Shown: in pieces, positions 63,035-64,000 of the stretch
Layout of the letters: each line of letters starts with the position of its first letter
Position numbering within the stretch: the stretch's first letter is position 1
Source of the DNA: an uncultured Clostridia bacterium
GTDB taxonomy: Bacteria > Bacillota > Clostridia > Oscillospirales > Ruminococcaceae
Assembly (NCBI GenBank): GCA_947589355.1
Contig: CANPZC010000001.1
Span: forward strand, 124,001-188,000
Reading direction: 5' to 3'
Length of the DNA: 64,000 bases
The notes under the pieces: generated by a model
Databases searched by the model: none
Seen by the model: the letters and a program-made list of their open reading frames with translations, nothing else
What the model was told of the DNA's origin: nothing
Program-made: the position numbers and the translations under genes

Positions 63035-63063
63035 TTGACAAACAGCTTTTGACGTGTTATAAT
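63035..63063 (+). promoter_or_regulatory. Perfect-consensus SigA promoter for cysK
   Basis: TTGACA (63035-63040), 17 bases, TATAAT (63058-63063). The expected start of transcription falls inside the palindrome at 63064-63082. Confidence 0.8.
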
Positions 63064-63082
63064 ACCTATAATGCATATAGGT
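63064..63082 (+). promoter_or_regulatory. Candidate operator at the cysK start site
   Basis: ACCTATA-atgca-TATAGGT: 7-base inverted arms directly downstream of the -10 box. A repressor bound here would block transcription. An Rrf2/CymR-type regulator of cysteine genes is a possible binder, but this is inference. Confidence 0.5.
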
Positions 63083-63106
63083 TTTATGTATTAGAGGAGG
63101 GGCGCA

Positions 63107-63145
63107 ATGATGAATATAATAATGCGTAGAAATATACGATGTTGA
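63107..63145 (+). CDS. Candidate 12-codon leader peptide ahead of cysK
   Basis: ATG ATG at 63107-63112 begins MMNIIMRRNIRC and a TGA stop. A strong RBS (gaggagggg) lies six to ten bases upstream, better than needed by chance. The last codon is Cys, and the next gene makes cysteine, so Cys-dependent translation control is possible. No terminator hairpin is visible between it and cysK. Too short for the ORF track. Confidence 0.45.
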   Translation: MMNIIMRRNIRC

Positions 63146-63205
63146 TACTGTGTGAGCAATCAATAAATTAACATTAAATTTTTATATTTTTAAGGAGAGA
63201 TAACC

Positions 63206-64000
63206 ATGAACATCAATAAGTCACTTACCGATCTTATCGGCGGCACTCCGCTTCTGGAGCTTGTAAATTTTAATAAGGCAAACGGTCTTGAAGCAACCGT
63301 TATAGCAAAGCTTGAGTACTTCAACCCCGCAGGCAGCGTTAAAGACAGAATAGCCAAAGCTATGATAGAAGATGCCGAGGCAAAGGGCGCGCTGAAAGAG
63401 GGCTCTGTAATAATCGAGCCTACCAGCGGCAATACCGGCATAGGTCTCGCAGCAGTTGCAGCCGCAAGAGGGTATAAAATAATCCTCACCATGCCTGAAA
63501 CGATGAGCGTTGAAAGAAGAAATCTCCTCAAAGCATACGGCGCGCAGCTGGTGCTTACCGAGGGCGCAAAGGGCATGAAAGGCGCAATTGAAAAGGCAAA
63601 CGAGCTTGCCGCAAACACCCCCGGCAGCTTTATTCCGGGTCAGTTTACAAACCCTGCAAACCCTGCCGCGCACCTTGCTACCACAGGCCCCGAGATATGG
63701 AACGATACCGACGGCAAGGTAGATATATTCGTAGCAGGCGTCGGCACAGGCGGCACACTTTCGGGCGTTGGCGAGTACCTTAAATCTAAAAAGCCCGATG
63801 TAAAAATTGTCGCAGTTGAGCCTGCAAGTTCGCCCGTGCTTTCAAAGGGAACAGCAGGCCCGCACAAAATTCAGGGCATAGGCGCAGGCTTTGTGCCCGA
63901 TACGCTGAATACTTCGATCTATGATGAAATAATCCCCGTTGAGAATGAAGATGCCTTTGCAACAGGTAAAGCTATCGCGCGCAGCGAGGGCATACTTGTC
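63206..64000 (+). CDS. cysK: Cysteine synthase A (3' end outside window)
   Basis: The first 265 codons of a canonical O-acetylserine sulfhydrylase, absent from the ORF track because it runs off the window. It reads [19 protein letters not shown], the PLP lysine motif [32 protein letters not shown], the phosphate-binding [12 protein letters not shown] and [13 protein letters not shown]. It makes cysteine from O-acetylserine and sulphide. RBS aaggagag. Upstream are a consensus promoter, a palindrome and a short leader ORF. About 40-45 residues are missing at the 3' end. Confidence 0.95.

Follow-up and report, generated by a model that had tools for sequence, protein, structure and literature searches.

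The window, that is, the whole stretch of 64,000 nucleotides that was analysed, ends within a cysK gene whose leader combines a consensus promoter, a palindrome at the start point and a short open reading frame ending in Cys. How would such a leader control the gene? Clostridia are known for T-boxes and for CymR-type control. The reading that we consider likely is a two-level control of cysK, by an Rrf2-family repressor and by translational attenuation at an upstream ORF (uORF) with the codon pair CGA-UGU. Two layers of sulphur-linked control were already suggested in a preliminary description of this DNA, and this seems to us the best reading, both the palindrome and the uORF ending in Arg-Cys-stop being conserved beyond the species.

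The cysK leader

Direct reading of the sequence confirms the elements listed in that description, namely the consensus promoter, the palindrome at +1 and the Cys-ending ORF preceded by a Shine-Dalgarno sequence (SD) ahead of cysK (Table 1). The palindrome, ACCTATA-ATGCA-TATAGGT, lies directly 3' of TATAAT, and 60 nt separate the uORF stop from the cysK ATG at 63206. The ORF at 63107-63145 is present as described. G006, another genome of the genus, has ATA in place of the first ATG, so the start that is conserved is probably the second one, at 63110.

Table 1. Features of the cysK leader in the window (G005, G006 and G009 represent the three other species of the genus with the same leader)
Feature	Position	Strand	Basis
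Promoter, sigma-70-type consensus TTGACA-17-TATAAT (TTGACA 63035-63040, TATAAT 63058-63063, spacer 17 nt)	63035..63063	+	sequence, read directly; few substitutions in G005, G006, G009
Palindrome ACCTATAATGCATATAGGT, putative Rrf2-type operator over the start point	63064..63082	+	inferred
uORF Shine-Dalgarno AGGAGG	63095..63100	+	sequence; kept in all four species
uORF MMNIIMRRNIRC, with stop	63107..63145	+	frame and length same in four species
CGA-UGU-UGA (Arg-Cys-stop), proposed regulatory core of the uORF (Cys codon UGU 63140-63142, then stop UGA)	63137..63145	+	CGA-UGU invariant, 23 representative cysK leaders
Candidate leader hairpin GAUGUUGAU/AUUAACAUU, arms 63138-63146 and 63167-63175	63138..63175	+	folding
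cysK Shine-Dalgarno AAGGAG	63192..63197	+	sequence
cysK, cysteine synthase A, runs past window end	63206..64000	+	TIGR01139 above curated cut-off

A second ORF, MLILCEQSIN-stop (63139-63171), starts at the AUG within CGAUGUUG, and its length is kept in four sister species. It could be the cause of the conserved stretch 3' of the uORF stop; ORFs of this type were not seen in other families.

Conservation within the genus

Ten genomes of the genus were searched for CysK, and nine gave a match. All three leader elements are kept in four species, and a fifth has the palindrome alone. In G005, G006 and G009, promoter, palindrome, SD, uORF length and the RC-stop ending are all retained. The uORF peptides read MMNIIMRRNIRC in the window, MMNIIVRRIMRC in G005, MNIIVRNFKRC in G006 and MMNIIMRRIMRC in G009: the residues before RC vary among the four species, and the operator, the SD, the uORF frame and RC-stop are kept. 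The comparison of relatives proposed in the preliminary description thus speaks for it, the RC-stop ending and the palindrome both being found in close relatives.

The fifth species, G008, has a CysK 79% identical to that of the window and the palindrome GCCTATAAAGCCGATAGGT at the same place, followed by a spacer of 25 nt to cysK and no uORF. In G001 to G004, cysK is more distant and lies directly after another gene, with neither palindrome nor uORF. The gene order in G008 is LysR, Rrf2, cysK, PII-like; the window species has a LysR-Rrf2-PII block without cysK, out of which the gene has apparently moved, and its cysK is placed after a histidine-kinase gene. The LysR-Rrf2-(cysK)-PII-like block occupies positions 3585-5451 of L039 and 7982-9963 of L045.

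A CGA-UGU codon pair in cysK uORFs across Clostridia

Among 80 cysK loci of named genomes, 12 have SD-led uORFs with an in-frame CGA-UGU-UG, which range from MKRC and MFKRC to MKILSERCCRAHKTDNEQTNRI, and more CGA-UGU uORFs precede cysK in other Clostridia families. The uORF of G632 reads MLRKYFIKRC. All 23 leaders taken as representative of cysK, drawn from many families of Clostridia, have CGA-UGU in frame, some of them found via a CGATGT-like regular expression that permitted other Arg and Cys codons; unfiltered lists of all SD-led uORFs agree with this result. The representative uORFs have 4 to about 28 codons and varied sequences, and the codon after CGA-UGU can be a stop, Cys, Trp, Arg or Ser. 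Because that codon varies while CGA-UGU stays, what is conserved is the codons and not a peptide. The terminal Cys to which the preliminary description drew attention is therefore conserved, but as part of a unit that is the pair CGA-UGU, not Cys alone. CGA accounts for 4.6% of the Arg codons of the window and for 6.5% of those in the uORF-bearing loci; for UGU among Cys codons the shares are 25% and 29%.

In control uORFs at non-sulphur genes, CGA-UGU was found in 0 of 23, the lone control match being at metY. When 391 Clostridia genomes were searched for the pattern without regard to the gene behind it, about 40 places matched. Four of them (in G772, G687, G620 and G888) were confirmed to be short uORFs with the motif in frame, each followed directly by cysK; several other inspected matches were coding sequence in another frame. 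With a looser pattern, GGAG-ATG-CGATGTTG, chance matches in coding sequence swamped the signal in 394 genomes, and a first DNA-similarity search in the family yielded, outside the genus, promoter and SD fragments only. The uORF is absent from most cysK genes of the class.

A methionine counterpart at metY

The control uORF with CGA-UGU, MRHRIETLVRANCRLGRMYRCMC, precedes an O-acetylhomoserine sulfhydrylase (metY-type) gene. Seventeen metY leaders have an in-frame CGA-AUG in common, often with UGU or UGC next, a Met version of the leader that the preliminary description had missed. This pattern works as an independent check on the cysK rule, since it was found after it. The genome of the window species has such a leader itself (L401 12971-13081, G000:C9), composed of TTGACA-17-TATAAT, an operator-like GCATACCAAACAGATAGGT, an SD and the uORF MKANLQRRYCRM, which ends in CGA-AUG-UGA 71 nt before metY. 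In a list of intergenic SD-led uORFs from 1.23 Mb of this genome and the 80 loci, in which a uORF with two starts may appear twice, 14 of 18 CGA codons precede UGU or AUG, and these 14 are all before cysK or metY. Within the 1.23 Mb scanned, intergenic uORFs with CGA-UGU or CGA-AUG occur at cysK and metY only. Two of the features by which a leader-peptide attenuator is recognised are present: a short SD-led ORF lies between promoter and gene and is conserved in relatives, and it contains codons for the pathway product (CGA-UGU at cysK, CGA-AUG at metY).

The metY uORFs of L106, L074, L127, L076, L159 and L132 share a peptide motif close to L-x-R-x-N-F-R-F-G-R-M(C), which may reflect an additional effect of the nascent peptide.

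The palindrome and the candidate Rrf2 regulator

Related palindromes cover -10/+1 at the cysK genes of further species, some of them from other genera. Of 208 regions upstream of cysK, 28% contain an operator-like site with a score of 10/12 or more, compared with 0.9% of shuffles, and 57 non-identical sites give a consensus close to AAACCTATAAAACAGATAGGTTT. In several other genera an Rrf2-family gene adjoins cysK, at times together with LysR and O-acetylhomoserine sulfhydrylase genes, and among the 46 loci whose flanks are complete, 27 have an Rrf2 gene no more than 5 kb from cysK. The operator score is unrelated to this adjacency (mean 9.15 with an adjacent Rrf2 gene, 9.21 without). As expected of an Rrf2-regulated promoter, there is a conserved palindrome over the core promoter and a gene for an Rrf2 protein beside it or elsewhere in the genome. 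How well the palindrome is conserved, where it lies and which genes surround it together suggest an Rrf2-type operator that is widespread at cysK promoters of Clostridia. Such a layer is not new in kind, a CymR-type site at cysK having been predicted in Clostridium acetobutylicum (PMC3828012).

Two genome searches had been proposed in the preliminary description. The one for Rrf2-type regulators recovered a single gene (PF02082, at G000:C5:53016); the one for further exact copies of the palindrome came back empty, the cysK copy being the only one in the 2.2-Mb genome. A search permitting two mismatches gave 45 sites, fewer than the 83 of a reversed-pattern control, and a wider regulon drawn from it was rejected as noise. 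The Rrf2 protein passes the Rrf2 superfamily model only. It fails as CymR (NF047409, 105 bits against a cut-off of 195) and as IscR (TIGR02010, 110 against 207.6); its best solved relative is the BadM/Rrf2 regulator 4cic, followed by CymR 2y75. The likeness to CymR and IscR at cysK in Firmicutes consists in an Rrf2-family regulator, a predicted site at the cysK promoter and a regulator gene nearby (PMC3828012, PMC2940859), whereas the protein of the window species scores below both curated cut-offs.

Predicted pairing between the CGA region and the gene start

For each leader, the duplex energy of the 25 nt around CGA with its own gene's start region was compared by permutation with the energies obtained with the start regions of other species. 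The own start region is favoured in the cysK set (-7.9 versus -6.8, p=0.0004, n=23) and in the metY set (-6.7 versus -5.4, p=0.0022, n=17), p-values that are optimistic because the leaders are related by descent. In sliding windows, complementarity to the start region peaks at CGA in both sets; in cysK leaders the mean at CGA is -7.7 kcal/mol, versus about -4 to -5 kcal/mol elsewhere in the leader. Pairing is strong in L104, L118, L083 and L100 (cysK) and in L080 and L106 (metY). Given the advantage of own over other start regions and the peak at CGA, translational attenuation is a likely mechanism for the two sets of leaders.

The window cysK leader pairs weakly with its own start region (-2.1 kcal/mol), as does the metY leader of the same genome (-2.5 kcal/mol), and the cysK SD of the window is predicted to be mostly open. 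The codons of the window leader have an alternative pairing partner, a segment some 25 nt further downstream, and the metY leader has, by inspection, a similar downstream match, GAAUGUG/CACAUUC. When whole leaders were folded with a ribosome on the Cys codon, start accessibility passed from 0.51 to 0.54, rising in 8 and falling in 5 of 23 leaders; in this simple masking test the Cys position did not stand out from the others.

Possible mechanisms

According to the two-level reading, an Rrf2-family repressor bound to the palindrome across -10/+1 would block RNA polymerase when sulphur is ample, a step suggested by conservation, position and gene neighbourhood. The transcript would start with a short translated uORF with CGA-UGU as its core. 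When cysteinyl-tRNA is scarce, a ribosome that has the slow CGA in its P site would wait at the UGU in its A site and so keep the RNA around these codons from pairing with the cysK ribosome-binding site, which would allow translation of cysK; with ample cysteine it would move off, the pairing would form and cysK translation would drop. This reading is built on sequence comparison, that is, on the conserved layout, the invariant CGA-UGU, its link to cysK, the CGA-AUG of metY and the start-region complementarity of most leaders, and from it we infer the translation of the uORF, the stalling and the role of CGA. Because the window leader pairs weakly with its start region, the step after stalling in this species could be another hairpin, termination or RNA stability.

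One such option is transcriptional attenuation in the window species, in which the ribosome at UGU would cover one arm of the candidate hairpin, otherwise a weak terminator with the U-rich stretch AAAUUUUUAUAUUUUU that follows it. The Cys and stop codons do lie inside the 5' arm, and the poor pairing with the start region is in keeping with this scenario. However, the stem is A+U-rich and, at about -7 kcal/mol (z-score -0.83), no better than shuffles, its 3' arm is changed in G005, and no U-tract follows the hairpin in most other leaders, nor in the metY leader of the same genome; we regard this scenario as unlikely. That CGAUGUUG (and CGAAUG) might act as an RNA element, such as a site for pairing or for binding a protein, with the reading frame incidental, we find rather improbable. 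Most leaders retain UG behind UGU even though the encoded residue differs, and start-region complementarity works at the nucleotide level, but in the representative leaders an SD-led ATG reads the motif in frame, the codon after CGA fits the pathway (UGU at cysK, AUG at metY), and L108 and L103 retain CGA-UGU without the next UG.

The subset of metY uORFs with a common motif would suit an arrest by a nascent peptide that senses a sulphur metabolite in the exit tunnel. Yet cysK uORFs can be as short as four or five codons, with only Arg-Cys in common, and the synonymous choice, unneeded for peptide sensing, is fixed, and we tend to dismiss this hypothesis as quite improbable. Finally, the operator might regulate alone, the uORF being a by-product of a long leader: many cysK genes, that of G008 included, have an operator and a short leader without uORF. 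Chance uORFs would not have CGA-UGU in common, however, and none of the 23 non-sulphur controls has it, so that this explanation is to us very improbable.

Returning to translational attenuation, we put forward, more tentatively, that these leaders may be two-codon ribosomal sensors in Clostridia, in which a fixed slow CGA directly precedes the pathway-product codon and the RNA also pairs with the gene start. With CGA in the P site, a single product codon in the A site would suffice to sense tRNA charging, without a codon run; the product codon would be UGU at cysK and AUG, with or without UGU or UGC, at metY. CGA is presumably read by an inosine-bearing tRNA-Arg, and a tRNA-Arg(ACG) is present in the part of the genome read. 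The view of CGA as a deliberate slow codon draws on a Salmonella his-leader assay, in which de-attenuation was high with CGA, a codon read there more slowly than CGU or CGC (PMC4046918); a lacZ reporter of Bacillus subtilis, in which CGA runs caused no slowing (PMC10454642), counts against it.

Relation to known systems

The closest parallels are the mycobacterial cys operons, where polycysteine leader uORFs were predicted (PMC1262725) and where translation attenuation in M. smegmatis is attributed to Canestrari 2020 as cited in PMC13236596. Both groups have Cys codons in a short uORF before cysteine-biosynthesis genes and no obvious terminator. The mycobacterial uORFs, however, are leaderless runs of Cys codons in Actinobacteria, whereas the clostridial ones are SD-led, usually with a single Cys codon or two adjacent ones behind a rare CGA that does not vary, and have a Met version at metY. 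The window uORF, SD-led and without a run of Cys codons, was ruled out as a member of the polycysteine type. Translational attenuation has also been proposed for the LEU element of actinobacterial leuA, which differs in having a leucine codon run in a pseudoknot, and in gene and phylum (PMC1262725). In the his/trp leader-peptide attenuators of enterobacteria, too, the ribosome waits at codons of the pathway product, but these have runs of regulatory codons and a strong terminator, unlike the clostridial leaders with one or two codons beside a fixed CGA and no clear terminator.

The cysteine T-box of clostridial cysK shares with these leaders the gene and, as the signal to be expected, uncharged tRNA-Cys, but T-box RNA binds the tRNA directly, without a uORF (PMC2940859). 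No T-box match to Rfam was obtained in the window (E up to 1) or in seven leaders (E up to 0.1), and a T-box reading was rejected on this ground; no other Rfam match in the window or these leaders was credible. A SAM riboswitch was likewise considered and rejected. No description of a CGA-UGU uORF family was found in the literature searched or in Rfam, which is weak evidence, as subscription papers were mostly outside the search. Leader-peptide attenuation is known as a class, and what is new, as far as could be tested, is the fixed CGA, the combination of a Cys with a Met gene and the phylogenetic setting.

If true, this would mean that Clostridia also sense cysteine and methionine by means of the ribosome, and would provide a clean natural case of synonymous codon choice fixed across many families. 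With uORFs down to four codons, in Cys and Met versions, it would allow a direct test of whether a slow codon in the P site makes the ribosome more sensitive to the charging of the next tRNA.

A few leaders depart from the two types. Those of cysK in L235, L236 and L245 have SD-led uORFs that contain Cys and lack CGA-UGU (MKYTYSFPICITH, MKYKTYFLCIITDNYIKLI) and that may represent another type of Cys leader. The cysK leader of L090 mixes the cysK and metY types, its uORF ending in SGRMCCCLP, that is, CGA-AUG followed by three Cys codons.
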